Notes under the pieces: model-generated
Databases searched by the model: none
Told to the model about the DNA's origin: nothing
What the model saw: the letters and a program-made list of their open reading frames with translations, nothing else
Made by a program: the position numbers and the translations under genes
Part shown: positions 64 to 22,091 of the stretch, one piece after another
Numbering within the stretch: position 1 is the first letter of the stretch
Layout of the letters: each line of letters starts with the position of its first letter
Assembly (NCBI GenBank): GCA_021796315.1
Contig: JAJYOH010000021.1
Coordinates: forward strand, 1-23,827
From: Chloroflexota bacterium
GTDB lineage: Bacteria; Chloroflexota; Anaerolineae; Anaerolineales; Villigracilaceae
Direction: 5' to 3'
DNA: 23,827 nucleotides

Positions 64-1053
64 TTAGTGCGCCGCAGCGCCAGCTTCTTCGTGATGATCT
101 TCCTCATGGCCGTGACCTTGAGTGGCCTGCGCCATGAAGACCATTGTCAACATACCGAACACAAACGCCTGAATGATACCGACGAATAACTCAAACATCA
201 TGATCATGGCAGGCAAGATACTGATCCTGCCGAGCAGACCGGCAACAATCGCAACCAACACCACACCCGCGAACATGTTACCGAATAGACGGAATGCAAA
301 CGAAAGGATCTTCGAAAGTTCAGAGATCAATTCAAGCAGGCCGACCAAAAAATCCATCGCGCCGAAGAACGGCGTCTTGAACATGGTGCGGAAGTTGAAA
401 AACTTGCTCAGGTAACCAAATCCCTGCGCCTGAAAACCGATCACCTGGATCATCACCACCGCGATGATAGCCAGCGAAGCAGTGAAGTTCAGATCCACGG
501 AAATTCCGCGGAAGAACGGGGCGAGAATATATCCGTTCTCAACTTCGCCGGGTTGAAGAAGAATACCGGAAACCGGGTGTCCCTTCGCAACCTGATGCAA
601 AACGCCAATCGATTCAAAGCCCGGGATAAGTTTGAGCAGATTCGCGAACAACACATAGATCATGATGGTCGCAAACCACGGGAAGATCGCCCGCGCCCAC
701 TTCGCTCCAGCCGAACCTTCGGTGAGACCGTAAAGCATCTCAACCGCCGCTTCCATCAAATTGCCGATGCCGCGCGGAACGAGATCGGTCTTCGCGCTCT
801 TCTTGATGGATTGATTGGTGGCATACGAAATAATCAAAATGAGAATGATCGTTACCAACAAAGTTGGCAGCGTGTTCACCAGATAGAACGGCCCGATAAC
901 AGGCAGAGTGAACAATGGTTCTTCAATTAATTTTTCAGCCGCAACCGTGATCTCCGGCTGAACAGGAACAAAGATCCCGCCCACCACAAAGCCAACGATC
1001 ATCAGCACGAGCACGACCCAGCGTCGCCAGGGTCTACGCTTCTGAGTTTCCAA
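64..1053 (-). CDS. atpB: ATP synthase F0 subunit a
   Basis: Subunit a forms the proton half-channels against the c-ring in the membrane. The 329-residue product is strongly hydrophobic with about six helices. It carries the family hallmark SFAFRLFGNMFAG with the essential Arg at 255, followed by FELFVGIIQAFVF with Glu288 and Gln295 in the last helices. The start is a TTG at 1053-1051, chosen because AGGAGG lies four bases upstream and the next in-frame ATG falls inside the first helix. It lies 12 bases after the AtpZ/AtpI-like gene and 28 bases before atpE, so the three form an operon. It is somewhat long for the family, partly from an N-terminal basic stretch and a His/Glu-rich C-terminal tail (GHGHEEDHHEE). 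Confidence 0.95.
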   Translation of the reverse strand: METQKRRPWRRWVVLVLMIVGFVVGGIFVPVQPEITVAAEKLIEEPLFTLPVIGPFYLVNTLPTLLVTIILILIISYATNQSIKKSAKTDLVPRGIGNLMEAAVEMLYGLTEGSAGAKWARAIFPWFATIMIYVLFANLLKLIPGFESIGVLHQVAKGHPVSGILLQPGEVENGYILAPFFRGISVDLNFTASLAIIAVVMIQVIGFQAQGFGYLSKFFNFRTMFKTPFFGAMDFLVGLLELISELSKILSFAFRLFGNMFAGVVLVAIVAGLLGRISILPAMIMMFELFVGIIQAFVFGMLTMVFMAQATQGHGHEEDHHEEAGAAAH

Positions 1054-1065
1054 GACGCCTCCTAA

Positions 1066-1338
1066 TTATTCAGAGATTTTCTTCTCTGATTCAGCATTAG
1101 ATTTGATTCTCGCCAGCGTCCTGCGCCCTACAAAGAGCATCAGGATAACTGAAAGAGGAATTCCTGCGAATAAAAGTATAAGAGTGAAAAGTGGCTTCGT
1201 GTGAAAAGTCTGGTCAAGCCACAGACCGCCGAACAACGTACCCAGGATAATGATCAACGTCAGGCACCCCACCTGCCCCACCAACACGATCAAAAGCGTA
1301 CTGATAACGTTCTGTTTATTTCCGTTCGATTGTGTCAT
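1066..1338 (-). CDS. AtpZ/AtpI-family small membrane protein of the ATP synthase operon
   Basis: A 90-residue protein with two predicted membrane helices (about residues 12-37 and 48-69) separated by a short polar hairpin (LDQTFHTKP) and ending in a charged tail. This layout and its place as first gene before atpB match the AtpZ/AtpI group, which in other bacteria helps assemble the c-ring or supply Mg2+/Ca2+ to the ATP synthase. Family assignment comes from topology and context rather than a sharp motif. The ATG at 1338-1336 has no Shine-Dalgarno sequence and lies only eight bases after a perfect -10 box, so the message is probably leaderless. No credible in-frame start exists downstream before the first helix. 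Confidence 0.75.
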   Translation of the reverse strand: MTQSNGNKQNVISTLLIVLVGQVGCLTLIIILGTLFGGLWLDQTFHTKPLFTLILLFAGIPLSVILMLFVGRRTLARIKSNAESEKKISE

Positions 1339-1444: not shown

Positions 1445-2893
1445 CTAAAACAGGTTCGCCGCCGCAGCGCTCGACCAGCTGAACCACGGCGCAAACACGG
1501 TTCCGATCAAAATGACGCCCAACGCCAACACCGCCAACGCGATCGCATATGGGCGAGTCAACATCACCGGATGTTTGTCTTCATCCTCTTTTTCCATGCG
1601 ATAAAGATAGACATACTTCATCACATTCAAGTAGTAATACACGCCCACGATGGAATTCAGGATGCCCATGACAACCAGCCAGGTGTAATTAGCCTGGATA
1701 CCTGCCGCAAAAACAAAAACCTTGGCAACAAATCCACCGAACGGAGGCATGCCCGCCAGTGACAGGAACGCCGCCAGCATGATCAGTCCAAGCCACGGCG
1801 AACGGCGGCTGAGGCCTCGATACGCATCATATTCGTCCGAGCCGACAATCCTGCCGACTGCTGCGACCACACCGAAGGCGGCCATGTTGGTCACGATGTA
1901 AGCCAGCATGTAAAAGACCACGCTCGCGATTCCTAATTTTGAAATCGCCACGATGCCGATCATGGCATAACCCGCATGAGCGATGGATGAATAAGCCAAC
2001 ATGCGTTTGATATTCTTTTGCGGCAGAGCCATTAAATTGCCAATCGTCATCGTGACCGCGGAGAGAACTGCCAGCATGGTTGTCCATGAAATGGTGAAAT
2101 CAGGGAAGACAACCAGGAAGAGTCTTGCGATGACCGCAAAGCCTGCAGCCTTGGAAGCTGTTGACAGAAAACCAGAGATCGGGGTCGGCGCGCCATGGTA
2201 CACATCGGGCGCCCAAAAGTGGAATGGAACGATCGAAACTTTGAAGCCAAGTCCGACGATCAGGAGGAAGATCACACCCAACATAACGGGACCCGCCAAA
2301 TGTCCAGATTGAAGCGCAGCGGCGAGAGCATAAAGATTGGTCGTCCCGGCAAATCCAAACAGCAGACTAAATCCATAAAGCATGATCGCCGATGTCATCG
2401 CACCGAAGAGCAAATATTTGAAGCCCGCTTCGGTTGAGCGCTCATCCGAAAGCATGAAGCCAGCCAAAACATAAAGCGGAATGGATGTGGTTTCGATGGC
2501 AAGATAAAGCATCACGAGATCGGCGGATGATGCCATCAGGCACATGCCGATGGTGGATGCGAGAAGCAGAACGTAGGCCTCGCCGCGATCGCCGACTTTT
2601 TCGTGATCCATCAGGAACAAGGCCGTGATGCCTGCTCCAAAAACAAAGAACATCTTGAAGAAGAAGCCAAGCCAATCGAAGCGGATCATGCCGCCGAGCG
2701 CCGCAACCGGTTCACCCGGACGACCAACAAGGAGACTGATGATCAACGTGGCAAGTAAGCCGCCAGCCGTCAACCAGCCAGCGTTGCGACGATTTTCGGC
2801 TTTCCAAAACGGCTCGACAATCAAGACGATAACGCCAAGAATCAGGATGAGCGTTTCAGGGAGAATGGAAAGAAAGGAAATGGATGTAAACAT
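1445..2893 (-). CDS. nuoN: NADH-quinone oxidoreductase subunit N
   Basis: NuoN is the antiporter-like subunit nearest the quinone module of complex I. The 482-residue product is of normal length and has about 14 helices. The conserved channel residues are visible: Glu134 in IETTSIPLYVL, Lys218 in GFKVSIVPFHFWAPDVY, Lys248 in STASKAAGF, and the late Lys in GFVAKVFVF. Its ATG overlaps the stop codon of the upstream nuoM by one base (TAATG), so the two are probably translationally coupled. It is the last nuo gene, and the atp promoter lies about 70 bases beyond its TAG stop. Confidence 0.96.
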   Translation of the reverse strand: MFTSISFLSILPETLILILGVIVLIVEPFWKAENRRNAGWLTAGGLLATLIISLLVGRPGEPVAALGGMIRFDWLGFFFKMFFVFGAGITALFLMDHEKVGDRGEAYVLLLASTIGMCLMASSADLVMLYLAIETTSIPLYVLAGFMLSDERSTEAGFKYLLFGAMTSAIMLYGFSLLFGFAGTTNLYALAAALQSGHLAGPVMLGVIFLLIVGLGFKVSIVPFHFWAPDVYHGAPTPISGFLSTASKAAGFAVIARLFLVVFPDFTISWTTMLAVLSAVTMTIGNLMALPQKNIKRMLAYSSIAHAGYAMIGIVAISKLGIASVVFYMLAYIVTNMAAFGVVAAVGRIVGSDEYDAYRGLSRRSPWLGLIMLAAFLSLAGMPPFGGFVAKVFVFAAGIQANYTWLVVMGILNSIVGVYYYLNVMKYVYLYRMEKEDEDKHPVMLTRPYAIALAVLALGVILIGTVFAPWFSWSSAAAANLF

Positions 2894-4410
2894 TATTGAA
2901 CTCCCAGCAGGCCCAGGATGCTTTTGACGCCCGTTTCAACCATCGGCACCATGAAGGATGGGAACACTCCGATGAGGATCATCAGACCAGACAGGGTCAC
3001 GATGGCAACTTTGTCGAGCACGGTGACGTCGGTCATGTGACCTTCCAGTTTCTCCGGCATTTTTCCGAAGAAAACTTTGCGGATGTTCAGCATGATGTAG
3101 GCCGCTGTCAGGATGATGGAAAGACTGGCAATGACCGCCACCAGCCATTGCGATTTCCACACGCCCATGAAGATCGGGAACTCGGCAACGAAACCGGAGA
3201 AGCCCGGCATACCCATCGAAACCAAACCACCGATGATAAAACCGATGGCCGCGAACGGCATGACTTTGTTCATGCCGCCCAGTTCGGGAATTTGACGTGT
3301 GTGCGAGCGGTCATAGATCATACCGGTGACAGCAAAGAAGAGAGCCGTCATGATTCCGTGCGAGAACATTTGCACACCCGCGCCGAGCAGACCGTCATGA
3401 TTCAGAGTTGAGATACCAAGCATCACCAGTCCCATGTGCGAGACGGACGAGAAACCGATCATGTATTTCATATCGGTCTGAACGAAGGCGATGAATGCGC
3501 CGTACACAACCGCCACGCCTGCACATAACATGATGACCCATGACCAGTGTTGAGCGCCTTCAGGCAGAAGCATGATGCCGACACGCAACGCCGCGAACGC
3601 GCCAAGCTTCATCAACACGCCCGCATGGAACATGGAAACAGCCGTCGGCGCAGCAACGTGTCCATCTGGCGACCAGTTATGAAAAGGCCAGATGCCGCCG
3701 AGCACGGCGAAGCCGAAGAAAACGGGAAGAAACCACAGGTTCTGGAAGGAAGCGGAGAAACCAGCCTTTTCAAGTTGAAGCATATCAAAGGTGTAGATGC
3801 CGGTGTTCTGACCAGCCACCCAATACATCGCCAATGCGCCGACCAATGCGACCACCGAACCGATGAACAGATAAAGTGTCAGCTTCATGGCCGCGTATTC
3901 GCGAGTCTGTATCCAGCCCCAGATGACGATGAGCAGATACATCGGGAACACCGCGATCTCATAGAAGAAGAACAACATGAACAGGTCAAGTGAAGCAAAG
4001 ACGCCGAACACGCCGCTGGCCAAGATGAACAGGAAGGCAAAGAATTCGCGCGGACGATCCTGAATGCCGGCGGAAAGATGCGAGTGTTCATCGAAGTCGC
4101 CCCACGAGATCAACACACCCGTGAACATGACCACGCCGGTCAAAAGAACGAGCGGAGCGCTGATGCCGTCCACGCCGAACTTGAGGCTGATGCCCAAAGC
4201 GGGAAGCCATGGATATGTTTCAATAAATTGATAACCGGCGGCGGTTTTATCGTAAGAGAGATAAACCCAAAACGAAAGCAACAGAGCGAACGTTGCGGCG
4301 GCCAGCGCCACGCCGCGCGCTTCCGTCTTGCGGTCAGCGGGGATCAACAAAATGATCATCGCCGCCACAAGCGGACTAAAGACAATCACACTCAATACAG
4401 GAAAATTCAT
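2893..4410 (-). CDS. nuoM: NADH-quinone oxidoreductase subunit M, second copy (divergent)
   Basis: A 505-residue antiporter-type subunit with about 14 helices, clearly NuoM-like: Glu151 in FYEIAVFPMYLL, Lys268 in GVLMKLGAF, and the late Glu in GFVAEFPIFMG. It differs from the neighbouring NuoM in one notable way. The TM7 motif normally read as AIKVPIWPFHTW is AVLGGIWPFHNW here, so the conserved lysine is Leu237 (codon 3702-3700). I start it at the ATG at 4410 rather than the in-frame GTG at 4416, because that GTG lies inside the GAGGTG ribosome binding site. It follows the other nuoM across a 62-base gap holding a palindromic element and overlaps nuoN by one base. Confidence 0.93.
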   Translation of the reverse strand: MNFPVLSVIVFSPLVAAMIILLIPADRKTEARGVALAAATFALLLSFWVYLSYDKTAAGYQFIETYPWLPALGISLKFGVDGISAPLVLLTGVVMFTGVLISWGDFDEHSHLSAGIQDRPREFFAFLFILASGVFGVFASLDLFMLFFFYEIAVFPMYLLIVIWGWIQTREYAAMKLTLYLFIGSVVALVGALAMYWVAGQNTGIYTFDMLQLEKAGFSASFQNLWFLPVFFGFAVLGGIWPFHNWSPDGHVAAPTAVSMFHAGVLMKLGAFAALRVGIMLLPEGAQHWSWVIMLCAGVAVVYGAFIAFVQTDMKYMIGFSSVSHMGLVMLGISTLNHDGLLGAGVQMFSHGIMTALFFAVTGMIYDRSHTRQIPELGGMNKVMPFAAIGFIIGGLVSMGMPGFSGFVAEFPIFMGVWKSQWLVAVIASLSIILTAAYIMLNIRKVFFGKMPEKLEGHMTDVTVLDKVAIVTLSGLMILIGVFPSFMVPMVETGVKSILGLLGVQ

Positions 4411-4426
4411 AAGCACCTCACGTATG

Positions 4427-4475
4427 CGTAACGCGTAATTCGTACAGGCAATTACGCGTCACGAATTACGTATTA
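4427..4475 (-). repeat. Intercistronic palindromic element between the two nuoM genes
   Basis: Arms 4427-4440 and 4450-4463 pair over 14 positions (13 Watson-Crick plus one wobble on the transcript) around a 9-base loop. A third arm, ACGAATTACG at 4461-4470, can instead pair with 4434-4443, so two folds exclude each other. The decamer TTACGTATTA at 4466-4475 recurs exactly at 9062-9071 inside another intergenic palindrome, which suggests a dispersed repeat family. Its right end contains the stop codon of the upstream nuoM. Confidence 0.7.
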
Positions 4476-5990
4476 GAAAAGCCTCATTACGGCTTTATTG
4501 ATCACATCAAGTATCCACGCCGGCCAGATGCCGATGACTAAAATCAAGACCATCAGCGGAGCCATGACAAAAATTTCGCGCGTGTTGATCTCGGTAAGTT
4601 TATGTTCGCCGTGCGCCCAATGTTCATTCAACGGGCCATGTAAAACTTTCATGATGCCCTTCAAAATATATGCGCCAGTGAAAAGCAAGCCAAGCATGGA
4701 AATCGCGGTGTAAACCGTCAGCACCGGGAACGCGCCCCGCACCACGAGAAACTCCGAGACGAAACCATTAAGCCCGGGCAGGCCAAGCGAGGCCATGCTG
4801 GTAAAGATCAGGATGCCGCCATAAATCGGGACGAGCGGGAATAATCCGCCGAACTCTTCGAGGTTGCGCGTGTGAGTCCGTTCGTAAATTACGCCGACCA
4901 GGAAGAACATTCCAGCCGCGGACAATCCATGATTGAACATTTGCAGGACCGCGCCGTTCATGGCGATGTGCGCATCGGCCGTGCCCGCGGCGTAAGCGGC
5001 TGCCGCGATACCGAGCACTACAAAGCCCATGTGATTGACCGATGAATATGCAACCAGTCTTTTGAAATCTGTCTGACCGAATGAACCGAACGCGCCGAAG
5101 ACAATCGCAGCGGTGGCAAGGGCAGCCAGCCAGCCGGCGTAATTATGTGACTCGACCGGATATAACGGCAGAACGAGTCGCAAAAATCCGTACGCGCCAA
5201 GTTTGAGCAGGACACCAGCCAGCAACATCGAGCCAGCAGTCGGGGCTTCGGTGTGCGCATCAGGCAACCACGTGTGGAAAGGCCAGATCGGAACCTTGAT
5301 CGCAAACGCGATCACGAACGCCCAGAAGATGACCGTCTTCACAGTCTCAATTGGATAGCCAAGCAAAAAGCCCTGGGCCGAAGTCCAGTTTGCGGTAATG
5401 GTGGCAAGGTCAAAGGTCCCGAACAAAGAGCCGAGCAACTGAATGCCGAGCAAGAGTCCGAGCGAGCCGCCCATGGTGTAGATCATGAACTTGAGCGAAG
5501 CGTAATCCTTGTTGGCGCTTCCCCACTGATTGATGAGGAAGTACATCGGCACGAGGCCAATTTCCCAAAACAGGAAAAAGATCAGCAGGTCGATCGCCAT
5601 GAAAACGCCGAGCATTCCGGTTTCCAAAAACAGGAAGAGCATCATGTACGGTTTGATGCGATCGGTCACACTGAAGGATGCGAGAATGGCGAGCGGCGTC
5701 AACAGCGTGGTCAACAAAACCATAGTCAGGGATAAACCGTCCACGCCGAGATGAAGCGACGAATTGATGGCTTGATACCAGATGTATTTTTCTTCGAACT
5801 GGTATCCGGCCACACCGGACTTGAACTGGGTCCACAAAAAGACAGAGAGTCCAAACGGAATGAGACTCGCACCGAACGCGAACCAGCGCAAAAGTTTGGC
5901 TTCGTCCTTCGGCAGGAAAAGCATGACGATCGCCGAGACAGCCGGGAGAAATAAGATCAGGCTAAGAAGATGGGAAGTGAGAAAATCCAT
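4473..5990 (-). CDS. nuoM: NADH-quinone oxidoreductase subunit M, first copy (canonical)
   Basis: A 505-residue proton-pumping antiporter-like subunit with a complete set of NuoM channel residues: Glu143 in FWEIGLVPMYFL, Lys232 in FAIKVPIWPFHTW followed by LPDAHTEAP, the Lys in GVLLKLGAYG, and the late Glu in NGFVSEFLV. The start ATG at 5990 has GGAG five bases upstream. It lies 16 bases after nuoL, so it is the copy in the usual nuoL-nuoM position. It and the following NuoM share the fold and motifs but little continuous sequence, so this is an old duplication or an acquired paralogue and not a recent tandem copy. Confidence 0.95.
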   Translation of the reverse strand: MDFLTSHLLSLILFLPAVSAIVMLFLPKDEAKLLRWFAFGASLIPFGLSVFLWTQFKSGVAGYQFEEKYIWYQAINSSLHLGVDGLSLTMVLLTTLLTPLAILASFSVTDRIKPYMMLFLFLETGMLGVFMAIDLLIFFLFWEIGLVPMYFLINQWGSANKDYASLKFMIYTMGGSLGLLLGIQLLGSLFGTFDLATITANWTSAQGFLLGYPIETVKTVIFWAFVIAFAIKVPIWPFHTWLPDAHTEAPTAGSMLLAGVLLKLGAYGFLRLVLPLYPVESHNYAGWLAALATAAIVFGAFGSFGQTDFKRLVAYSSVNHMGFVVLGIAAAAYAAGTADAHIAMNGAVLQMFNHGLSAAGMFFLVGVIYERTHTRNLEEFGGLFPLVPIYGGILIFTSMASLGLPGLNGFVSEFLVVRGAFPVLTVYTAISMLGLLFTGAYILKGIMKVLHGPLNEHWAHGEHKLTEINTREIFVMAPLMVLILVIGIWPAWILDVINKAVMRLF

Positions 5991-6006
5991 CGTGACTCCA
6001 ATCTGG

Positions 6007-8148
6007 CTACGCCAGCCTCAACAGGTATAAAAGCAGACCGGCGAGGGCGAGGATGATCACCAGTGACACAAGCATGTATTGCTGGATGCGACCGGATTGG
6101 ATCGGTCGCAGGGAGCGGCCAAACCATTGAGTGACGTGAGCCGTGCCATCACCGAAAAATTCATTGATGACAGGCAGGTCGAAATAATTGCGGATGCCGG
6201 AACCGATTCCATTGGCGGCTTTTCCAAACAGATGCAGGAAGCCGTCGATCGCGCCTTTGTCCATCCACAAGGAAACGAAGACTTCAGAGAACCAGATGGC
6301 GGGCTTGATGAAAACAACATTGTAGAGTTCATCAAAGTACCATTTGTTTTTGAGAACTGGAATTTGTAATTTATCCTGGGCTGCGTTTTGAACATTGCGA
6401 TAAACAAGCCAGCCGAGCAGCAAGCCGCCCAGCGCAACCACCAATGAAGTTGTCAGCGGAACGAAACTAAACGGCGCGGCTTCCGGCATCGTCGCCAGAG
6501 TCGAACCGACGAATTCATGGAACCAGTTCGGGAGCAACCCGCCGAGGCCGGGGAAATGTTCAGGAATACCAACCCAGCCATAACCGATCGCAAAGATCGC
6601 AAGAACCACCAGCGGAAGCGTCATCGTCCACGGAGTTTCCTGCGCGTGCTCCGCTTCTTTTGTGCGCGGCTCGCCGAGGAAAGTCAATGTGATCTGGCGC
6701 ATCGTATAGAAAGCTGTCAGGAAGGCCGCCAAAGCCAGGGTAACGAAAACCGCTATGTGTCCGCTGCCGAACGCTTCGGCGAAGATCTCGTCCTTCGACC
6801 AGAATCCCGCCGTCAAAACCGGGAAGCCGGAGAGGGCAAATCCGCCAATCAGGAATGTCCAAAAAGTAATTGGCATCTTCTTTCTAAGTCCGCCCATGTT
6901 GAACATATCCTGCGGGTCAACATCGTGATTGCCCGTGTGAAAAACACCGTGTTCCATTCCATGAATAACCGAACCGGAACCGAGGAAGAGCAAGGCCTTG
7001 AAGAATGCGTGCGTGACCAAGTGGAAAGCCGCCGCAACATACGCGCCAGTTCCGAGCGCGGCGATCATGAAGCCGAGCTGCGAAATCGTCGAATAAGCCA
7101 GGACGCGCTTGATGTCGTTTTGCGCGACGGCAATTGTGGCCGCGAATAAAGCCGTGAACGCGCCGATGAATGCAACGAACGTCATCGTGTGCGCATCGAG
7201 GCTGAGCAGCGGGAACATGCGGATGACCATGTACACGCCCGCCGACACCATCGTCGCGGCATGGATCATGGCGCTGACCGGCGTCGGACCTTCCATCGCG
7301 TCCGGCAGCCAGACGTGTAACGGCCACTGCGCCGATTTGCCGATCGTCCCGATGAAGAGAAGCAGACCGATCAAGCCAGCCGCGGAAAGTCCGAAGATCG
7401 GCGTGGGAACGGTCGCTAAAACATGCAAAGTATTTGCAGTGAAAATTTCGCGATAGGAAAGTGTGCCGGTCGCGCTATAAAGGAAAGCAATGCCGAGCAG
7501 CATAAACACATCGCCGATGCGGGTGGTCATGAATGCTTTGACCGCCGCGTTGCGCGCCGATGGCTTGGCATACCAGAAACCGATCAAGAGATATGAACAT
7601 AAACCCATGATTTCCCAACCGACAAATAACGTGAGCAGATTGTCGGAGAGAACCAGTGTGTACATGCCGAAAGCGAACAGTCCCAGGAAAGCAAAGAAGC
7701 GCGAATACATAGGCTCGATGGACGGCACAACATGCTTGTGTCCGTGTTCTTCAACGGTTGCGCCATGCGGCGGCAAACCAGGGTGATCGTGATCGCCAGC
7801 AGGTTGACCGTAATTGTGATAGCCCACACTGTACACAAAAATCATGAAGATCGTCCATGCCACGAAGAACAAAACCACCGCCGAGAGCGGATCAACCAGC
7901 ACGCCGATCTTCAACCATGTATCGCCGGTCGGGATCCAGTTGATGGCGGATGCAAAAGGTTCCTTGCCGAGTTCGGTCACGCCAATGGCGCGCACAAAAA
8001 CGATCATCGCGCCCAGCCATGAAAGCGCCGCCGCGCCGACTGCCACTGTGTGGCTGAGCGTTTTATTTTTATTCGTGAACAACACGATCAAAAAGAACGC
8101 CAGGATCGGGGGTAATGGAATTAACCAAATCAATGTTTCAGTCGTCAT
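6007..8148 (-). CDS. nuoL: NADH-quinone oxidoreductase subunit L, extended form
   Basis: NuoL is the distal pumping subunit, whose C-terminal amphipathic helix runs back along the membrane arm. The 713-residue product has the expected residues: Glu179 in VGWEIMGLCSYLL, Lys271 in GKSAQWPLHVW, His296 in HAATMVSAGVY and Lys452 in GFWSKDEI. It is roughly 100 residues longer than the E. coli protein. One extra part is a His-rich loop at about 111-141, between predicted helices. The other is in the lateral-helix region after WYFDELYN (603-610): the stretch from IDG (634-636) to QSG (684-686) is 50 residues, compared with roughly 23 in alphaproteobacterial NuoL as I recall it. The last membrane helix is about 690-711. 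The start ATG at 8148 has GGAGG four bases upstream. A hairpin separates it from nuoK. Confidence 0.96.
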   Translation of the reverse strand: MTTETLIWLIPLPPILAFFLIVLFTNKNKTLSHTVAVGAAALSWLGAMIVFVRAIGVTELGKEPFASAINWIPTGDTWLKIGVLVDPLSAVVLFFVAWTIFMIFVYSVGYHNYGQPAGDHDHPGLPPHGATVEEHGHKHVVPSIEPMYSRFFAFLGLFAFGMYTLVLSDNLLTLFVGWEIMGLCSYLLIGFWYAKPSARNAAVKAFMTTRIGDVFMLLGIAFLYSATGTLSYREIFTANTLHVLATVPTPIFGLSAAGLIGLLLFIGTIGKSAQWPLHVWLPDAMEGPTPVSAMIHAATMVSAGVYMVIRMFPLLSLDAHTMTFVAFIGAFTALFAATIAVAQNDIKRVLAYSTISQLGFMIAALGTGAYVAAAFHLVTHAFFKALLFLGSGSVIHGMEHGVFHTGNHDVDPQDMFNMGGLRKKMPITFWTFLIGGFALSGFPVLTAGFWSKDEIFAEAFGSGHIAVFVTLALAAFLTAFYTMRQITLTFLGEPRTKEAEHAQETPWTMTLPLVVLAIFAIGYGWVGIPEHFPGLGGLLPNWFHEFVGSTLATMPEAAPFSFVPLTTSLVVALGGLLLGWLVYRNVQNAAQDKLQIPVLKNKWYFDELYNVVFIKPAIWFSEVFVSLWMDKGAIDGFLHLFGKAANGIGSGIRNYFDLPVINEFFGDGTAHVTQWFGRSLRPIQSGRIQQYMLVSLVIILALAGLLLYLLRLA

Positions 8149-8160
8149 GAAGCCTCCACA

Positions 8161-8193
8161 AAACCCTAAAGGTCTCCAAAACCTTTAGGGTTT
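8161..8193 (-). repeat. Perfect 13-bp hairpin between nuoK and nuoL
   Basis: AAACCCTAAAGGT (8161-8173) and its exact complement (8181-8193) flank a 7-base loop. On the transcript the stem lies right after the nuoK stop and ends about four bases before the GGAGG of nuoL. There is no U-tract, so it is unlikely to terminate; an mRNA-stability or processing role is plausible. Confidence 0.75.
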
Positions 8194-8196
8194 GTA

Positions 8197-8505
8197 TTAC
8201 CATTTCATCAAATCAATTTCATCAGCGATGACGGTGTTGCGTCGGCGATAAACTGAAATGACCAGCGCCAGACCGACAGCCACTTCCGCGGCGGCCACCG
8301 CAAAGACAATGATCGCGAACACTTGTCCCGCCATCATTGAAACTTCACCGTAACGCCAGAACGCCACAAGATTGACATTCACCGCATTGAGCATCAACTC
8401 CACGCCGAGCAAAATCGCAATGGCATTCTTGCGCGACAACACACCGAACAATCCAACGCTGAACAAAGCAGCTGAAAGAACGAGATACCATGAAAGGGGA
8501 ATCAT
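8197..8505 (-). CDS. nuoK: NADH-quinone oxidoreductase subunit K
   Basis: A 102-residue, three-helix membrane subunit of complex I of normal length. The signature helix ILLGVELMLNAVNVNLVAF contains the conserved Glu of the central hydrophilic axis, and the third helix AIIVFAVAAAEVAVGLAL contains the second conserved Glu. The start ATG at 8505 has AGGAG six bases upstream. It lies nine bases after nuoJ, in the usual nuoJ-nuoK order, within the membrane-arm operon. Confidence 0.96.
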   Translation of the reverse strand: MIPLSWYLVLSAALFSVGLFGVLSRKNAIAILLGVELMLNAVNVNLVAFWRYGEVSMMAGQVFAIIVFAVAAAEVAVGLALVISVYRRRNTVIADEIDLMKW

Positions 8506-8514
8506 CGCGGTCTC

Positions 8515-9042
8515 CTATTTTTGAGAGTCCCCGGAACGGGGATTGAAGGCGAGATAAACCGCGCCGACCAATGCCGCCAACAAAAGAATAGATGCGACTT
8601 CGAACGGCAAAACAAAACCGGTGGGCGACGTGAGCGCATTGCCCAACTGCCCCACCGCGTCAAACCCGACCGGGAGATCGGCCGCCGTTTTCGAGAAGCC
8701 GCTCCAACTCTGGAGCATTCCGAACAGCCCGCCGAATACCAACACTGCGATGATCGCGCCGAGCCACCATCCGCTGTTCAGACGCTGACCGCTTTCCAGT
8801 TGCTCCTTGCGAGTCAACATGACCGCGAAGATGAACAGGATCGCAATTGCGCCGATGTAAACGACAACTTGTACCACCGCCAAAAATCCGGCGTTCAACA
8901 ATGCGTAAATGATCGCCACTCCAAACAGCGTGGATACCAGCCACAACGCGGAGTGAACCAGATTGCGGCTGGTTACAACCATCAGCGCCGAGCCGAGGGT
9001 GACAACCGCAACAATGAGAAAAATAATTTGAGATGCTGTCAT
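8515..9042 (-). CDS. nuoJ: NADH-quinone oxidoreductase subunit J
   Basis: A 175-residue, five-helix membrane subunit. The family's characteristic helix is present as VVVYIGAIAILFIFAVMLT, including the Tyr and the glycine of the pi-bulge region that changes shape during turnover. I start it at the ATG at 9042 (MTASQIIFL), which has AAGGA five bases upstream. An in-frame extension to 9099 would translate straight through the 9058-9087 palindrome and is rejected. It sits between nuoH and nuoK; a short gap with a palindromic repeat separates it from nuoH. Confidence 0.94.
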   Translation of the reverse strand: MTASQIIFLIVAVVTLGSALMVVTSRNLVHSALWLVSTLFGVAIIYALLNAGFLAVVQVVVYIGAIAILFIFAVMLTRKEQLESGQRLNSGWWLGAIIAVLVFGGLFGMLQSWSGFSKTAADLPVGFDAVGQLGNALTSPTGFVLPFEVASILLLAALVGAVYLAFNPRSGDSQK

Positions 9043-9057
9043 AAGATTCCTTTTTCG

Positions 9058-9087
9058 GAATTTACGTATTACGTAATACGTAAATTC
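9058..9087 (-). repeat. Perfect 30-bp palindrome between nuoH and nuoJ
   Basis: Bases 9058-9087 equal their own reverse complement over all 30 positions, centred between 9072 and 9073. As RNA this would be a 13-bp stem with a 4-base ACGU loop. It is AT-rich and built from repeated TACGTA-type units. It shares the decamer TTACGTATTA with the element at 4427-4475. No U-tract follows. Confidence 0.8.
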
Positions 9088-9095
9088 GACATTCA

Positions 9096-10289
9096 TCAAT
9101 GATGCGCGGCTTCCGCAGCTTTCGGCGCTTCAACTTTTTCACGTTCACTGCGGCTGTACGAGCGCACAATTTCCAGCGCGATCCACGCCACTAAAACGTT
9201 CGACAGGAACATGCTGATTGCGTAGACCCAGACCGAGGTCCCGGCCAGAAGCGCATTCATCAATGCAGTCACCATCAAAAGCGCGAATGAAAGCGGCGTC
9301 AGGAATTTCCAGTTGAAGGCCAGCATGTGGTCGATGCGAATACGCATCATGGTGTATCGAACCCACATGATGACCCAATATCCAACCAGGGCCTTGGCAA
9401 GAAAAATAATAACTGCCAGGAACGGGCTGACTTTTTCCAGGCCGAAGAAACGATATCCGCCAAAGAACAGGATGGCCAGGAAACCGCCGAAAGTCAAAGC
9501 ATGTAAAAGCTCGCCTGCATAAAACATGCCGAACTTCATTCCCGAATATTCGATGTTAAAACCGGACACCAGTTCCGATTCGCCTTCGGAAAGATCGAAC
9601 GGAGCGCGGCCCAACTCTGCGATGGCGGCGACCAGGAAGATCACTGCGCCCAAAGGCGAAAGAATGAAATACGGGATGCTTTGCGCCTGGATGATCCCGT
9701 TCATGCCCATTGTCCCGGCGAAAATGGTCGGGATCAAAAGCATCGCCACCATCGGAATCTCGAATGAAACCATCACGGCCACCTGACGGAACGCGCCGAT
9801 GGTCGCAAATTTATTATTCGACGACCAACCTGCCATGATAATGGAGAGTGTGCCGATTGCGCCTGCGGCAATAATATACAGCAGGCCTACATTCAAATCC
9901 ACGCCGAGGATGACGGGAGCCAGAGGAACGATAGCCCACAAGATCAACACCGACATCATCGAAAGCATCGGCGCGATGTTATAGACTACACGGTCGGCGC
10001 CTTCAGGCGTGGTGTCTTCTTTAATAAGAAGTTTGATAATGTCCGCGAACGGCTGGATCAAACCGAAAGGTCCAACCCGGTTCGGACCAATGCGATCCTG
10101 GAAGCGCGACACCACTTTGCGCTCGAGCCAGACCAGAAAAATATCCATCACCATCAGCAAGGTAATGAGCAGAAGCGTGCCGAGAAAAGCCACTAATATA
10201 CCGGCAGCCACGGCAGGCATTCCCCAACCGGCGAAAATTCCAGTCAACCAGTCCGCGGCGATTTTGAGAGGGTCATTCCAAAAATTCAT
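9096..10289 (-). CDS. nuoH: NADH-quinone oxidoreductase subunit H
   Basis: NuoH anchors the peripheral arm and forms much of the quinone chamber. The 397-residue product shows WLERKV, then DRIGPNRVGPFGLIQPFADI and the acidic loop AELGRAPFDLSEGESELVSG leading to NIEYSGMKFGMFYAGE, all diagnostic. It is longer than most homologues, with an extended N-terminal region and a charged C-terminal tail ending in KAAEAAHH. The start ATG at 10289 has AGGAG six bases upstream. It follows nuoA directly across a gap with a hairpin; the nuoB, C, D and I genes often found between A and H are absent here. Confidence 0.96.
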   Translation of the reverse strand: MNFWNDPLKIAADWLTGIFAGWGMPAVAAGILVAFLGTLLLITLLMVMDIFLVWLERKVVSRFQDRIGPNRVGPFGLIQPFADIIKLLIKEDTTPEGADRVVYNIAPMLSMMSVLILWAIVPLAPVILGVDLNVGLLYIIAAGAIGTLSIIMAGWSSNNKFATIGAFRQVAVMVSFEIPMVAMLLIPTIFAGTMGMNGIIQAQSIPYFILSPLGAVIFLVAAIAELGRAPFDLSEGESELVSGFNIEYSGMKFGMFYAGELLHALTFGGFLAILFFGGYRFFGLEKVSPFLAVIIFLAKALVGYWVIMWVRYTMMRIRIDHMLAFNWKFLTPLSFALLMVTALMNALLAGTSVWVYAISMFLSNVLVAWIALEIVRSYSRSEREKVEAPKAAEAAHH

Positions 10290-10309
10290 GAGTCACTCCT
10301 GTACACACA

Positions 10310-10349
10310 AAGAAAAGGCTGAAAGGAATTGTCCCATCAGCCTTCTCTT
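10310..10349 (-). repeat. 13-bp hairpin between nuoA and nuoH
   Basis: Arms 10310-10322 and 10337-10349 pair at 13 positions on the transcript, 12 Watson-Crick and one G-U, around a 14-base loop. The downstream side reads TTTTCTTTG, a weak U-rich tract, so partial attenuation is possible. The nuoH ribosome binding site follows shortly after. Confidence 0.6.
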
Positions 10350-10365
10350 ATAAATTACGATTGAA

Positions 10366-10719
10366 TTACGCCCACTCCAGCATTCCCTTGCGCCAGGTAT
10401 AGATCAGCCCGGCAATCAGGATCGCAACAAACACAATGCCTTCGATAACGGCAAACAATCCCAATTGGCCAAGCCGTACAGCCCACGGAAAAAGGAAAAC
10501 TGTTTCAACATCGAAGACCAGGAACACCAATGCAAAAATATAATACTGTGCCTTGAACTGCACCCAGCTATCGCCTACAGTCTCGATACCGCATTCATAA
10601 GTTGCCAGCTTAATGGGATTCGACTTCTTTGGTCCCAAAATCCAGGCAACACCGATCGCGCCTACAGGGATGATCAGCCCAACAATAAAAAACAAACCAA
10701 CGTAAAGCCATTCGTTCAT
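10366..10719 (-). CDS. nuoA: NADH-quinone oxidoreductase subunit A
   Basis: A 117-residue, three-helix membrane subunit. The diagnostic loop PIKLATYECGIETVGDSWVQF is followed by YYIFALVFLVFDVETVFLFPW, including the conserved Cys and acidic residues near the quinone site. I start it at the ATG at 10719 (MNEWLYVG), which has GGAG eight bases upstream. A longer in-frame form from 10803 would have a Cys-rich, non-family N-terminus and would cover the likely promoter. It is the first gene of the nuo membrane-arm operon. Confidence 0.95.
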   Translation of the reverse strand: MNEWLYVGLFFIVGLIIPVGAIGVAWILGPKKSNPIKLATYECGIETVGDSWVQFKAQYYIFALVFLVFDVETVFLFPWAVRLGQLGLFAVIEGIVFVAILIAGLIYTWRKGMLEWA

Positions 10720-10821: not shown

Positions 10822-11676
10822 TCATGTATTCTTTTTGTGAAATAGGTGTTCAACTAGCCACTTCAAAATATCGGTTACAAATGGAAAGCCAAGGATCGCC
10901 CCGATAACAGATCCGACACCGCCAGCCGCGCGTGCCGCATTTCCATTCAGGCCAAGAAAACTTGTCGCCTCGATCTGGACCGATTGGGCGGATACCGTTT
11001 TTTGGCTTTCCACCCCGCTGACTTTATCAATGAAGCGCAGATAGAACCAGGCCGTGCCGCGGAACGTTCCCGCTGTAGTCGGGAGAACACTCCAATAAAA
11101 CGTGGCTGATTGTCCGGGCAGGAGCGGTTCGCTGATTGTTTCGCTTGGGCGGATCTGCAGCCCGGCCATATCCAACCGCGCTTCAGCAATCACATTATGT
11201 GTATCATATAAATTTGGGATTTGAACAATTTTTCCGGTGACGGTATTCCCCTGCGCCTCGGCTGTCGGCGTGACGTTGCCAAGCGTATCGATTTCAAGCG
11301 TCAGGCGAATCACATCCGAATCGCCCACGCGAATCTTTGACGGATACTCCAGCGTCAGGCGGCGCGATTCCAAAATGGCCGGAGGCGGCGCAATGACCAG
11401 CGACTCGGATGGCCGCTGCGCCGTTGGGGTTTGCCGAATAACAAGCGAGGAGAAAGTCGGGGCCGGCGCGGGTTGTGTCGCTTCGATCACCGGCAAAATA
11501 GTCGGGTAAGGCGCGGGCGCGCCCACGCTTGCTCCGCACGCAAGACTGACGCCAAACAAAACCAGTCCAGCGAGGAAGAGATAAAAGTTTCTAACGAGGC
11601 GAGGCCGGTTGTTCAGGAGTCCGGCCCAAGGCGCCGAATGAAGCGATGAAAATTTGGGAGAGTTATCGTTTTGCAT
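10822..11676 (-). CDS. Unrecognised membrane-anchored extracytoplasmic protein
   Basis: I do not recognise a family. The 284-residue product has a basic N-terminus, one hydrophobic helix (about 31-47) ending SLAC at Cys47, and a Pro/Ala/Thr-rich linker (about 50-75). A beta-rich domain of about 150 residues follows, and a second hydrophobic stretch (about 252-280) precedes a basic tail HKKNT. SLAC is only a loose lipobox, so lipoprotein anchoring is uncertain; the first helix may simply stay in the membrane. Most of the protein would lie outside the cytoplasm. The ATG at 11676 is seven bases after the methyltransferase stop, with GGTGAT upstream, so it looks like the last gene of the importer and demethylation operon. 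Confidence 0.75.
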   Translation of the reverse strand: MQNDNSPKFSSLHSAPWAGLLNNRPRLVRNFYLFLAGLVLFGVSLACGASVGAPAPYPTILPVIEATQPAPAPTFSSLVIRQTPTAQRPSESLVIAPPPAILESRRLTLEYPSKIRVGDSDVIRLTLEIDTLGNVTPTAEAQGNTVTGKIVQIPNLYDTHNVIAEARLDMAGLQIRPSETISEPLLPGQSATFYWSVLPTTAGTFRGTAWFYLRFIDKVSGVESQKTVSAQSVQIEATSFLGLNGNAARAAGGVGSVIGAILGFPFVTDILKWLVEHLFHKKNT

Positions 11677-11683
11677 TTGGTCA

Positions 11684-13132
11684 TCACCATCCTTCGGGCA
11701 TCTCCAATTTTCCAGAAACTAAATCTTTGAACTCAGCCCGAATACGAGCGTCCACTTCGGAAGAAAAAACCGCCAGGCTGTCGCGCTCAAAAATTTCACG
11801 CACCTTCAGCGCGGCGCGCGCATGTGTATCCAGCGCGCCTTTCTTTTCCCATTGAGTCCGCGTATCGCGGTCTGAAAGTTTTGGAAGCAGTGCGGATGTT
11901 TTCATGCGTTTCATAGTGTGAGGCTCGACAATGAACGAACCACCCGGCCCGACCTTTGCGATCACATCCAGGGCCAGTTCATCTTCACTGAAGTCGATAC
12001 CATGCTTGAGGCGCTTGAGCATAAGCGCAATTTCATCATCGATCACGGTCTTGGCAAAGTCAAACACTTTCAACGCTTCGAGTAGACCGCCCATATTCAA
12101 CATATCCATGCCAGCCAGCACGCCAGCCGTGGTGGACATACCAGTTTCGTAACCAGACTGCGCATCATTGATCTTGGAGTTCGTCAGCCCAATGTAACCG
12201 CCGGATGGCACATTATAGAAGTGCGCCATTTGCGCGTGAGCCATGTGCAACATGCCGCACTCGATACCGCCCGACGCATATGCACCGCTGCGCATATCGG
12301 CAACCGTAGGCAGCGTGGCATAGATCAAGGGCGTGCCCTCGCGCACCATTTGCATCAACACTGCCGCTGCTAAAAATTCAGCGTTGCCTTGCGCCAGTGT
12401 ACCAGCCATGGACATCGGCGAAGTGAGTCCGGCATTCGGCACGATCGTTGGATAAACCGGCAATCCTTGTTCCGCAAAAAACATCAATGCTTCGGTCGAT
12501 AAATGATCCATGGTCAGCGGCGAGACCACCGGGCAATAATGATGCGTGATGAAAGGATGTTCGCGATAGGCTTCGTCACTGCCAGCGATCAGACTACCCA
12601 ACTTTAAAATTTTCCTGGCATCCGGCAAATCCTTGCTGGTGATGCGGACCGGTTTCAAACAATATTTCAAGGCCGGATAAATGCGCGCCAAGGTAAATTG
12701 TTCAGGCGGCGCATCATCAGCCAGAACGGAGACCGAAAAAATATCGTAACCAGGCAGCTCGTTGATCAGATGCGCGATGCGGGCGATATCGTCAGAACGT
12801 GAGCGTCTTTCCTGACCCGTGACCGGGTCCAGCAAATTTGGGGCTGAACTCCCGGTGACGATGACCGGGCCATCCTGCGGAATCGTTTTGTCAAATTTTG
12901 GGTCGCGCCCGTGAAAGGTAAAAGTCGGCGGCATCATTCGGCGATATTTTTCGACCACTGCCGGAGGAAATTTTACGATCTGTTTTTCCGAATCCACAAT
13001 GCAGCCATGCTGGGCAAAAACGGCGCGAGCTTTTTCATAACGCACCAGCAAGCCGACGTTCTCAAGAATCTCGAGCGAGGCATCATGAATGCGCTGAGTC
13101 TGTTGATCCGAAAGAAGAGTAGCAAAAGCCAT
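11684..13132 (-). CDS. MttB-family methylamine/betaine:corrinoid methyltransferase, non-pyrrolysine type
   Basis: The 482-residue protein is of normal MttB-superfamily length and aligns along the whole family, with features such as LEILENVGL near the N-terminus and a TIM-barrel core. In archaeal trimethylamine methyltransferases the pyrrolysine sits just before a T-[DN]-S-K motif. Here the matching stretch is GGYIGLTNSK, with Leu316 encoded by CTG, so no amber codon is involved. Pyrrolysine-free members such as MtgB move a methyl group from glycine betaine to a corrinoid protein. No corrinoid protein or activating enzyme is in the window, so the acceptor must be encoded elsewhere. It starts two bases after the PfkB-like gene, with GAGGAA eight bases upstream of its ATG. 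The exact substrate is inferred from neighbours. Confidence 0.85.
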   Translation of the reverse strand: MAFATLLSDQQTQRIHDASLEILENVGLLVRYEKARAVFAQHGCIVDSEKQIVKFPPAVVEKYRRMMPPTFTFHGRDPKFDKTIPQDGPVIVTGSSAPNLLDPVTGQERRSRSDDIARIAHLINELPGYDIFSVSVLADDAPPEQFTLARIYPALKYCLKPVRITSKDLPDARKILKLGSLIAGSDEAYREHPFITHHYCPVVSPLTMDHLSTEALMFFAEQGLPVYPTIVPNAGLTSPMSMAGTLAQGNAEFLAAAVLMQMVREGTPLIYATLPTVADMRSGAYASGGIECGMLHMAHAQMAHFYNVPSGGYIGLTNSKINDAQSGYETGMSTTAGVLAGMDMLNMGGLLEALKVFDFAKTVIDDEIALMLKRLKHGIDFSEDELALDVIAKVGPGGSFIVEPHTMKRMKTSALLPKLSDRDTRTQWEKKGALDTHARAALKVREIFERDSLAVFSSEVDARIRAEFKDLVSGKLEMPEGW

Positions 13133-13134: not shown

Positions 13135-14100
13135 TTACATTTCCTCGTTTGATTTTATGGTAATTCCGGAAAAGGCCGGATACTCAACTTGAAGTTTTGC
13201 AGCGACCGCCGATATCTCATCCACATCGAACATTTGAAGTCCGGCCCTGGTGACCTTGAGCGATGCGGCGGCAGTTGCAAACCGCACACAAGCTTCGAGC
13301 TTCCAGTCATGCAAATATCCATAAACAAAACCGGCTGAAAAAGTTGCGCCCGCTCCGCATCCATCCACGGCCTCGACAATTGGCGCATGTACCCGTATTG
13401 CCTGATTCCCCTGCACGGCAAGGCAACCCTCTTCAGCCATGGTAATCAATGCAGTTTGGACGCCAACCCGCAACAATTTTACTGCCACGTCCAACGGCGA
13501 TTCTTCGCCAAGTTGCGCCGCATCCGTCACCGCCTGACAAATTACGGCCCGCCCCGCATAATTTTTTAATTTATCCAGATCTGTGTGACCATGTTCAAGA
13601 TTGAGAAACACTTCCACGCCAGATCGACGCGCAGCATGCATGGCACGCAGAATATGATCGCCATCGTACCAGTCTACATATAAAACACGCGCGTTTTCAA
13701 GTAGGGAAAGGTCGGCGGTATCGAGAGTATCTAATATTTCCGGTGTGCGTTGCCAAAAATACGTGCGCGCGCCGGTCCTGTCCGAAATGTCGACTTCGTG
13801 CGGCGTTTTGAATTCTTTCGTAAAGCGCACATCCGCCTGCACGCCCCATTCATCCAACTGGCGGGCAAGATCATGTCCGCGCGGGTCGTCGCCAACGGAT
13901 GTGCCGATCATGCCCGTTGGCACATTCCACTGGCGCAGCAGACAGGCGACAATCGCGGCGTCATCGAACACAAACTCATTGACTTCTTTCACGATTGCGC
14001 CGGTATTATGCTCTGGAAGTTGTTCCACCACCATGATCGTGACGGGCGTCAACATTCCAAAGCCAATGTAAACGGGATGGGCCTTTGAAATCGGTGTCAA
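13135..14100 (-). CDS. PfkB/ribokinase-fold protein lacking the catalytic Asp (possible pseudokinase)
   Basis: The 321-residue sequence follows the PfkB fold: a beta strand VYIGFG, a middle motif SVGDDPRGHDLARQLDEWGV, and the C-terminal anion-hole motif. That motif normally reads D-x-x-G-A-G-D but here is DGCGAGATF, so the catalytic base is Ala252 (codon 13347-13345). The usual GG motif near the N-terminus is also absent (VFDDAAIVACLL). Sugar-kinase activity is therefore doubtful; a binding, structural or altered catalytic role is possible. The start is a TTG at 14100: it is the only ordinary start between the in-frame stop of the Rieske gene and the first beta strand, with a weak GGGA upstream. 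It lies in the middle of the demethylation operon and is probably coupled to the methyltransferase. Confidence 0.8.
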   Translation of the reverse strand: MTPISKAHPVYIGFGMLTPVTIMVVEQLPEHNTGAIVKEVNEFVFDDAAIVACLLRQWNVPTGMIGTSVGDDPRGHDLARQLDEWGVQADVRFTKEFKTPHEVDISDRTGARTYFWQRTPEILDTLDTADLSLLENARVLYVDWYDGDHILRAMHAARRSGVEVFLNLEHGHTDLDKLKNYAGRAVICQAVTDAAQLGEESPLDVAVKLLRVGVQTALITMAEEGCLAVQGNQAIRVHAPIVEAVDGCGAGATFSAGFVYGYLHDWKLEACVRFATAAASLKVTRAGLQMFDVDEISAVAAKLQVEYPAFSGITIKSNEEM

Positions 14101-14130: not shown

Positions 14131-15390
14131 TTATCGAAGTACCGGAGCCATCTGCTGCTCATACCAGCGCAGAAAACTCTCAAGGTTATATTCCTTGAAC
14201 GTCGAAAGCGGACCCGGTGTATAAGCATGTGAATTGACTCCGCGCTGCTGGTTGACACATATTTCCCAATCCTGCTCGGCGGTCATCAACCAGAAAGGCA
14301 GAAGTTTCTCAAGATCATAATCCCTGCCTTCTTCGGCTTTTTCATCCACCAGCCAGGTCATGCGGACAGCAGTGTGATACAGCCCATTGGGAGTCAGTCT
14401 CACAGAGACGCCATGGTCGCAGCTGGAATGCTGCCAGAAATTGGGCAGCATCCGCACACGGACAGTGCCTACATCGGGGTCCGTATAATCACCCATCAGC
14501 GGAGCAACCTGTTGACCGTCCAGGCTTTCGCAGACAAAGCCGTCCACGAGCGGAGTGCGATTGGCTGAATACCAGATATTATGTTCCGGGTCGGGAAATT
14601 CAGTGAGTCCAGCTTCCGTACGAGTGACCGCCAATCCCTGAGAAGCCCATTTCGCTTCACTGCGAGCCGTAACCATCTCAAGCTGTTCTGCAATGCGATC
14701 GATCGTATCGTCAGCGTTGTAATGATCAAAGTTGGCCTTGATATATTGCGGATGATTGACATTGCAGTGATAACACTCGCGATTGTTTTCCCAGACCAGT
14801 TTCCAGTTGGCATGAATATCGAAATCCATGATCTTGGCGACTTTTGCGCGCGTCAAACCCTGGGGACGAACGACCGGAGCAATGGTTTCATACGCAGCCT
14901 CAAAGTCCATCGGCTCTTTGGCAAGGCTGATAAAGATCATCCCTTCCACTTCGCGCGCATGTGCCTGGTGCAATCCCAATTCGGATTTATCAAGCCCTTC
15001 CTGCATTCCGCGCCAGAGAAGCAAACGTCCATCACGGTCATAAGTCCACTGATGGTACGGACAGATAAAGCGCTTGACGTGCCCCTCCGCCGCTTCGCAG
15101 ATAACCGAACCGCGGTGGCGGCAGACATTGTAAATGGCCCGCACCCCGCCATCATCCTGACGGACGATAATGACCGAGTCGCCATCCACTTCGTACAAAA
15201 AATAATCACCCGCTTTCGATATCTGACAGGAATGACCGGCAAACAACCAGCCGCTGCGCCAGATGACATCCATCTCCGCGCGATAAAGAGATTCATCCTG
15301 ATAATAAGGCCGTTGCAAACCATGTCCAGGCTGGCGTGGCGGGATCATTTTCTTGAGAGCGGAAAAATCTGTAGAATTGAGAGTTGACAT
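14131..15390 (-). CDS. gbcA: Rieske non-heme iron oxygenase, glycine betaine monooxygenase-like
   Basis: The Rieske [2Fe-2S] ligands are Cys90 and His92 (CRHRG) and Cys110 and His113 (CPYHQW). The mononuclear iron site is His208 and His213 in ENNRECYHCNVNHP, with Asp374 in AEQDWEICVNQQRG as the likely third ligand. The ENNRECYHC form is typical of GbcA and close relatives, which use O2 and reductant to demethylate a quaternary amine, giving formaldehyde and, for betaine, dimethylglycine. The 419-residue length is normal. The usual reductase partner (GbcB) is not in the window. AAGGA lies about nine bases upstream of the ATG. The adjacent dimethylglycine dehydrogenase-like gene supports this substrate class, though stachydrine or carnitine relatives cannot be excluded. 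Confidence 0.85.
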   Translation of the reverse strand: MSTLNSTDFSALKKMIPPRQPGHGLQRPYYQDESLYRAEMDVIWRSGWLFAGHSCQISKAGDYFLYEVDGDSVIIVRQDDGGVRAIYNVCRHRGSVICEAAEGHVKRFICPYHQWTYDRDGRLLLWRGMQEGLDKSELGLHQAHAREVEGMIFISLAKEPMDFEAAYETIAPVVRPQGLTRAKVAKIMDFDIHANWKLVWENNRECYHCNVNHPQYIKANFDHYNADDTIDRIAEQLEMVTARSEAKWASQGLAVTRTEAGLTEFPDPEHNIWYSANRTPLVDGFVCESLDGQQVAPLMGDYTDPDVGTVRVRMLPNFWQHSSCDHGVSVRLTPNGLYHTAVRMTWLVDEKAEEGRDYDLEKLLPFWLMTAEQDWEICVNQQRGVNSHAYTPGPLSTFKEYNLESFLRWYEQQMAPVLR

Positions 15391-17875: not shown

Positions 17876-17920
17876 TACAGCATATCGCCTTTCGGATTTG
17901 AGTTGAATTACCATACGCAA

Positions 17921-19059: not shown

Positions 19060-19076
19060 CATTGTCTCCAATAGAG

Positions 19077-20770: not shown

Positions 20771-20797
20771 CTTGGAAACACTCCAGTTGTTATTATT

Positions 20798-20826
20798 TCT
20801 CCTCCCCTTCTGAGAAGGGGAGGAGA
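20798..20826 (-). repeat. Perfect 13-bp hairpin between the binding-protein and permease genes
   Basis: TCTCCTCCCCTTC (20798-20810) and its exact complement (20814-20826) flank a 3-base loop. The stem is GC-rich and very stable. On the transcript it is followed by AAATAATAAC, not a U-tract, so it probably protects the upstream binding-protein mRNA and does not terminate fully. Confidence 0.75.
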
Positions 20827-20841
20827 GTGAACAAACGGAAG

Positions 20842-21993: not shown

Positions 21994-22019
21994 TCTCTTC
22001 TTCTCCTTTTGGGTTTTTG

Positions 22020-22042: not shown

Positions 22043-22047
22043 GTTCG

Positions 22048-22077: not shown

Positions 22078-22091
22078 AATTAAACCAGACA

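Follow-up and report, generated by a model that had tools for sequence, protein, structure and literature searches.

A predicted four-antiporter complex I membrane arm of Chloroflexota with a leucine-type second NuoM

Described two-NuoM complexes and the locus in the window

Complex I variants with two NuoM subunits ("2M" complexes) are known from Chloroflexi, where two nuoM genes lie between nuoL and nuoN (PMC7117926, PMC8004040; papers are cited throughout from the portions of text consulted). In the form described in PMC7117926, nuoBCDI are located apart and nuoCD is fused. Nitrospira clade 3 (PMC6606698, PMC12342949) and Complex_I_3 of Ca. Manganitrophaceae (PMC9040806) likewise have two NuoM and a lateral-helix insertion, which comprises 26 residues in MrpD2 of Complex_I_3 and has a similar length in Nitrospira NuoL (PMC9040806). 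Four antiporter-like subunits are also present in the rhizobial 'green' complex I; there, two MrpD-like subunits replace NuoL (PMC9040806). In this study, we analysed 23,827 nucleotides from a Chloroflexota bacterium (GenBank assembly GCA_021796315.1, contig JAJYOH010000021.1, positions 1 to 23,827), hereafter the window, which carries the genes nuoA-H-J-K-L-M1-M2-N, including one for a true NuoL. Judged from its sequence, this cluster very probably codes for a four-antiporter (2M) membrane arm of complex I from an Anaerolineae-like member of the Chloroflexota. It is thus a further example of an architecture already published for Chloroflexi, and its phylum differs from those of the Nitrospira and Ca. 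Manganitrophaceae complexes. The title of Chadwick 2018 (ISME J) reportedly speaks of convergent evolution.

A first-pass annotation of the window had described two intact, divergent nuoM genes in tandem together with nuoL in one operon, forming a four-antiporter arm with a lengthened NuoL, and this description holds. All eight nuo frames are complete and open on the minus strand between positions 1445 and 10719 (Table 1) and are followed by atpI and atpB; the gaps between adjoining nuo genes do not exceed 76 bases, and two neighbouring pairs overlap. NuoL, NuoM1, NuoM2 and NuoN exceed the NCBIfam subfamily cut-offs (TIGR01974, TIGR01972 and TIGR01770), with 525 bits for NuoM1 and 449 bits for NuoM2 at a TIGR01972 cut-off of 263.8. 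NuoK also scores above its own cut-off, while NuoJ, NuoH and NuoA match their own families below it.

Descent of one NuoM from an Mrp or hydrogenase antiporter was considered and rejected, in agreement with the annotation: the complex I model TIGR01972 was best for both proteins, no Mrp or hydrogenase model ranked first for either in the NCBIfam profile comparison, and both were placed among NuoM in a tree with NuoN as outgroup and without Mrp rows. The predicted structure of NuoM2 has a mean predicted local distance difference test score (pLDDT) of 83.4, and its top Foldseek matches are NuoM chains, with a template modelling (TM) score of about 0.9 to solved NuoM; residues 244-257, directly after the leucine described below, are poorly modelled. 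The NuoL model resembles solved NuoL and NdhF chains (TM about 0.7).

For comparison, a genome collection was scanned with NuoL, which yielded at least 584 stretches encoding a relative. Of these, the 80 best were retained, and the title of each names a Chloroflexota group of some rank. Gene order and strand agree in 80/80 for the genes present. The run L-M1-M2 is visible in 69 and L-M1-M2-N in 63 of the 80 loci, and in each of the 11 loci lacking NuoM2 the contig stops before it. In one locus (L038, 10567-15196), an extra 4.6 kb or so, including an open stretch of 1292 codons, separates nuoL from nuoM1.

From this gene order, all four antiporter-like subunits are predicted to reside in one complex, with the membrane order L-M1-M2-N followed by K, J and H. 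The extra module of NuoL would let its lateral helix reach across the added subunit, and NuoM2 would act as an in-line proton-conducting subunit which passes the charge wave between M1 and N by a changed chemistry.

Leucine at the ion-pair position of NuoM2

An ion pair of a lysine and an acidic residue is described as conserved in each antiporter subunit (PMC9271201). In NuoM it is formed by E144 and K234 (PMC13073174), and one proposed mechanism of pumping includes the opening and closing of this pair (PMC9271201, PMC13073174). In the K234 column (E. coli numbers are used for NuoM and NuoN unless the window is named), NuoM2 carries leucine in 67/67 proteins of the window type and in 5/5 further two-NuoM clusters, of which L195 and L206 alone are distant from the window type; NuoM1 carries lysine in 75/75 and 5/5, respectively. 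Among single NuoM proteins lysine is present in 38 of 39, with locus L201 as exception. This is the sole column with a charged residue or histidine in more than 90% of single NuoM (L201 excluded) and in at most 10% of NuoM2. In a further set, the NuoM in first position had lysine in 36/36 and that in second position leucine in 37/37 cases; here, the first NuoM of L227 was too short, four genomes occur twice and several overlap the earlier sets. The 13 single NuoM of this set, chosen for likeness to NuoM2, comprise eight with leucine and five with lysine. Other Chloroflexota complexes whose lateral helix has normal length (L201, L244-248, L251 and L254) possess a leucine-type NuoM and no second one.

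The other residues of the proton path that were tested are largely kept. NuoM2 retains E144, K265, H322, H348 and E407 in 67/67. The same five residues, together with L234 and H259, occur in 240/240 near NuoM2-like proteins (the best 120 of each of two protein searches), which were chosen by similarity and are therefore not independent; the organism names among these listed matches are Chloroflexi, Anaerolineales or Dehalococcoidia. In the window, the corresponding histidine in helix 8 (H264) lies six residues ahead of the kept helix-8 lysine K270. NuoM1 of the window keeps all six residues including K234, and NuoN keeps E133, K217, H224, K247, H305 and K395, five of which are invariant in 59/59 NuoN of the relatives (H224 is histidine in 53 and glutamine in 6). 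In NuoL, nine key positions are kept in the window and in 80/80 relatives, and the lysine matching K234 is present in 80/80 NuoL and 59/59 NuoN. Canonical complex I (E. coli, Paracoccus, Sinorhizobium) has the same key residues as the window subunits except NuoM2. In three single-NuoM loci of the leucine type (L244, L245 and L246), aspartate replaces E144 as well and alanine occupies the site of the helix-8 histidine.

These comparisons incline us, with somewhat more than even confidence, to assign the second NuoM of four-antiporter complex I in Chloroflexota to a distinct leucine-type subfamily which has no ion-pair lysine in helix 7 and was combined with a lysine-type NuoM of another lineage; such a subunit would either be gated by something else than the Glu-Lys pair or lack pumping altogether. 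In PMC7117926 the gene is termed 'modified nuoM2', so changes in its sequence may already be noted in the original description (Chadwick 2018); the consulted portions of PMC7117926 and PMC8004040 do not mention the leucine for K234. A literature search found no published report of it, a search of limited scope that does not show its absence in print.

The annotation had also assigned one extra pumped proton to this complex, a claim left unsupported as it stood, given that NuoM2 has no ion-pair lysine; a fifth pumped proton is unproven. The hypothesis of five protons per two electrons has been proposed for 2M complexes (Chadwick 2018, as cited in later papers). According to it, NuoM2 exports a proton of its own, and the leucine would be neutral or its role covered by another gate. 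Taken on its own this falls just short of an even prospect, and once the 2M architecture is granted it becomes slightly favoured. The retention of the other tested residues in NuoM2 speaks for it, as does the service of the leucine type as sole NuoM in complexes with a normal-length helix. Furthermore, the E407K variant of E. coli NuoM still pumps, at a lower ratio of 1.5 H+ per electron (PMC9271201), so that pumping may survive when a single residue is lost. However, the pair that NuoM2 lacks is the one described for every antiporter subunit and built into the proposed mechanism, and the lysine is missing from every NuoM2 read and present in every NuoM1, NuoL and NuoN compared.

The second explanation takes NuoM2 as a relay or spacer which transmits the charge wave and adds length to the arm without exporting a proton. 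We consider this rather unlikely overall and, given the 2M architecture, a substantial though minority prospect. It would account for the uniform loss of the ion-pair lysine, and it agrees with three NuoM2 proteins (L242, L243 and L257) in which the helix-8 lysine is shifted to one residue earlier, two of them having glycine for H348. However, all 240 similarity-chosen proteins keep the tested residues of the proton path other than K234, among them E407 and K265, and a leucine-type NuoM serves elsewhere as the sole NuoM of its complex.

The NuoL lateral helix and the ancestry of the two NuoM

For the lateral helix of NuoL, the annotation had estimated an excess of about 27 residues. In the window, 48 residues separate D635 (IDG motif) from Q684 (QSG motif), while S. 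meliloti NuoL has 21 there, which gives an excess of 27, and the distance is 46-50 in 80/80 relatives. The insertion is also real in the alignment, as the segment from K602 (KWYFDE) to Q684 spans 82 residues in the window, whereas S. meliloti has 54 and E. coli 49. Canonical complex I further differs from the window in having one NuoM and in having NuoE, F and G in the operon.

Lateral-helix length was measured on the alignment from KWYFDE to QxG, excluding 32 NuoL for which no NuoN lay within reach in the locus. The segment comprises 81-84 residues in 12 sampled loci of the 80 relatives and 78-82 in 5/5 further two-NuoM clusters (one of them, L126, from the same genome as L075). In a second set, chosen for likeness to NuoM2, it is 78-82 in 8/8 two-NuoM and 52-54 in 12/12 single-NuoM clusters. 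Hence every two-NuoM cluster measured has a long lateral helix. Among 40 single-NuoM clusters, three of which are not from Chloroflexota, the segment is 49-54 residues long in 33 and 78-83 in seven (L123, L128, L130, L203, L197, L198 and L190, the first three fetched on purpose). A divergent NuoL with 25 residues in the segment (L132) belongs to a cluster without a NuoM match. Similar insertions are described for otherwise canonical complexes of Ca. Manganitrophaceae (PMC9040806). The long helix had been put forward as support for a four-pump complex: it is indeed present, but the seven single-NuoM clusters mean that helix length is no proof of a fourth subunit, and we rejected it as a marker of four antiporters.

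These seven single-NuoM complexes may recruit a second NuoM from elsewhere in the genome. In a search for further PF00361 members that covered their genomes except G012 and G078, G036 had three more (499-662 residues) at two places, G045 had two (492 and 652 residues), and G027, G004 and G015 had one weak match each.

The extension looks like a duplication of a module of about 27 residues. Its match to itself peaks at an offset of 26 in L190 (z 7.2), at 27 in the window type, where the repeat is weak (mean 2.5 shuffle deviations), and at 29 in the single-NuoM operons of Anaerolineales (3.1); the differing offsets are consistent with separate events. When helix length is mapped on a NuoL tree from which the C-terminal 170 residues were omitted, a minimum of three changes is required. 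At 1.5 angstrom per residue, 27 helical residues extend over about 40 angstrom, which is near the width of one antiporter-like subunit. The long helix therefore fits a fourth subunit without proving one.

For the ancestry of the two NuoM, a tree was computed by a quick method with the Shimodaira-Hasegawa-like approximate likelihood ratio test (SH-aLRT) as the only support measure, with the caution that long branches meet at its outgroup. M1 and M2 each form one group (SH-aLRT 98 and 97) that spans two separate Chloroflexota sets. M1 has the single NuoM of L190 as its sister (96), and M2 has the single leucine-type NuoM of L201 (100), a Dehalococcoidia protein by its database name. L190 joins the 2M set also in the NuoL (96) and NuoN (91) trees; L201 does not. 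Since some other complexes have a leucine-type NuoM as their only one, M1 and M2 seem to represent two lineages of old standing. Two histories fit: a leucine-type NuoM may have joined an L190-like complex which already had the long helix, or an old ancestor with two NuoM may have lost one copy in each sister.

The sister relationships also bear on a third explanation, according to which M1 and M2 are alternative subunits of two three-antiporter complexes sharing their other subunits. The closest relative of each is a sole NuoM elsewhere, and with L190 a long-helix cluster with a single NuoM exists. We nevertheless hold this to be improbable, as M1 stands ahead of M2 in one gene run in all 69 loci showing both and in the further two-NuoM loci, and the longer NuoL helix accompanies every two-NuoM cluster measured. 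A recent tandem duplication of one NuoM, which the adjacency of the genes might suggest, is less probable still and was rejected, given an identity of 34% between M1 and M2 and their separate, well-supported groups with single-NuoM sisters.

Peripheral arm, neighbouring genes and implications

No frame in the loci of the 80 relatives best matched E. coli nuoB, CD, E, F, G or I. The genomes of 16 of the 80 relatives were searched for peripheral-arm genes. In fifteen, two or more strong NuoB were present together with two or more NuoL above the cut-off; the chromosome record G014 had a single NuoL above it, a full NuoB and a second, shorter NuoB match, around which (L133) no further nuo match was found. 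In 6/6 regions (L122, L124, L125, L127, L129 and L131), nuoB is followed by a fused NuoCD frame (578-600 residues) and nuoI, apart from the membrane operon, and these six stretches contain no nuoE, F or G matches. These relatives thus share the separate nuoBCDI and fused nuoCD of the Chloroflexi form in PMC7117926. For the other complex, the fetched regions L123, L128 and L130 show a 14-gene-type operon that has a single NuoM (L130 is truncated where its contig begins, and no match was obtained for nuoJ and nuoK of L123). G014 carries a nuoE-nuoF pair at another place. The quinone-site arm NuoB-CD-I would come from a separate operon.

Table 1. Positions of the genes and sites in the window
Feature	Position	Strand	Evidence
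atpB and atpI (F0F1 ATP synthase), directly downstream of nuoN	64..1338	-	Profile matches: atpB, TIGR01131 104.9 bits (cut-off 102.6); atpI, PF09527 35.1 bits (cut-off 26.6)
nuoN, proximal antiporter-like subunit	1445..2893	-	TIGR01770 406.6 bits, cut-off 332.6
nuoM2, leucine type, second NuoM, adjoins nuoN	2893..4416	-	TIGR01972 449.4 bits
NuoM2 H264 codon (E. coli NuoM L259, helix 8)	3625..3627	-	Computed from gene start
NuoM2 L239 codon (E. coli NuoM K234 position)	3700..3702	-	Computed from gene start
nuoM1, lysine type, adjoins nuoL	4473..5990	-	TIGR01972 525.1 bits
nuoL, distal antiporter-like subunit, lengthened lateral helix	6007..8148	-	NF005141 643.2 bits, cut-off 556
NuoL lateral-helix segment K602-Q684	6097..6345	-	82 residues between anchors
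nuoK	8197..8505	-	NF004320 103.2 bits, cut-off 57
nuoJ	8515..9099	-	NF005168 110.8 bits, below cut-off 154
nuoH	9096..10289	-	NF004741 290.9 bits, below cut-off 305
nuoA	10366..10719	-	NF005839 137.4 bits, below cut-off 163
Predicted 284-residue protein adjoining nuoA	10822..11676	-	No NCBIfam or Pfam match
MttB-family methyltransferase	11684..13132	-	Below NCBIfam cut-off
PfkB-type kinase	13135..14100	-	Below NCBIfam cut-off
GbcA-like Rieske oxygenase	14131..15390	-	Below NCBIfam cut-off
Flavin adenine dinucleotide oxidoreductase-GcvT fusion	15452..17920	-	Below NCBIfam cut-off
ATP-binding cassette transporter set	17992..22092	-	All matches below cut-offs

The true start of nuoJ is probably further inside the frame; the listed TTG start overlaps nuoH, and many relatives have about 169 residues. 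The open reading frame of nuoA as listed extends to 10803, and the best start places its end at 10719, giving 117 residues, the commonest size in the relatives. The downstream atp genes are conserved neighbours: of the 63 relatives' loci that reach nuoN, 52 contain one. On the other side, the 284-residue protein, with hydrophobic N- and C-terminal stretches by eye, is a conserved neighbour of the 2M operon (59 of 71 relatives' loci containing nuoA). Next to it, the genes at 11684-17920 may serve glycine betaine or methylamine breakdown. In the transporter set beyond, the ATPase and binding protein are nearest to 2-aminoethylphosphonate models, and for the two permeases the nearest models are those of molybdate and sulfate transport.

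Several observations weigh against a 2M complex with a changed gate in NuoM2 as set out above. The separate nuoBCDI is transferred to the window organism from its relatives, and the 2M complex of C. aggregans, also a member of the Chloroflexota, differs in being given as nuoABCDHJKLMMN (PMC8004040); with BCD inside that cluster, the split is not general across the phylum. Besides the seven long-helix clusters with one NuoM, the lateral helix of the NuoL model has a pLDDT of about 47-73 and is modelled as two helices (603-655 and 659-680). The helix-8 histidine is replaced by leucine in L237, L255 and L256 and by alanine in L244-246, and hence does not strictly stand in for the lysine. In L243 and L257, the change of H348 adds to the shifted helix-8 lysine.

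The added subunit of a four-antiporter complex I is generally credited with one more pumped proton. Should NuoM2 lack the ion-pair lysine throughout the Chloroflexota, which holds for all cases read, this inference needs measurement, and the long helix found with one NuoM warns against calling 2M complexes by helix length alone. If NuoM2 indeed belongs to a leucine-type subfamily of its own, the complexes which have this type as their sole NuoM would be a natural test of the necessity of the Glu-Lys pair and of the ion-pair model of pumping.

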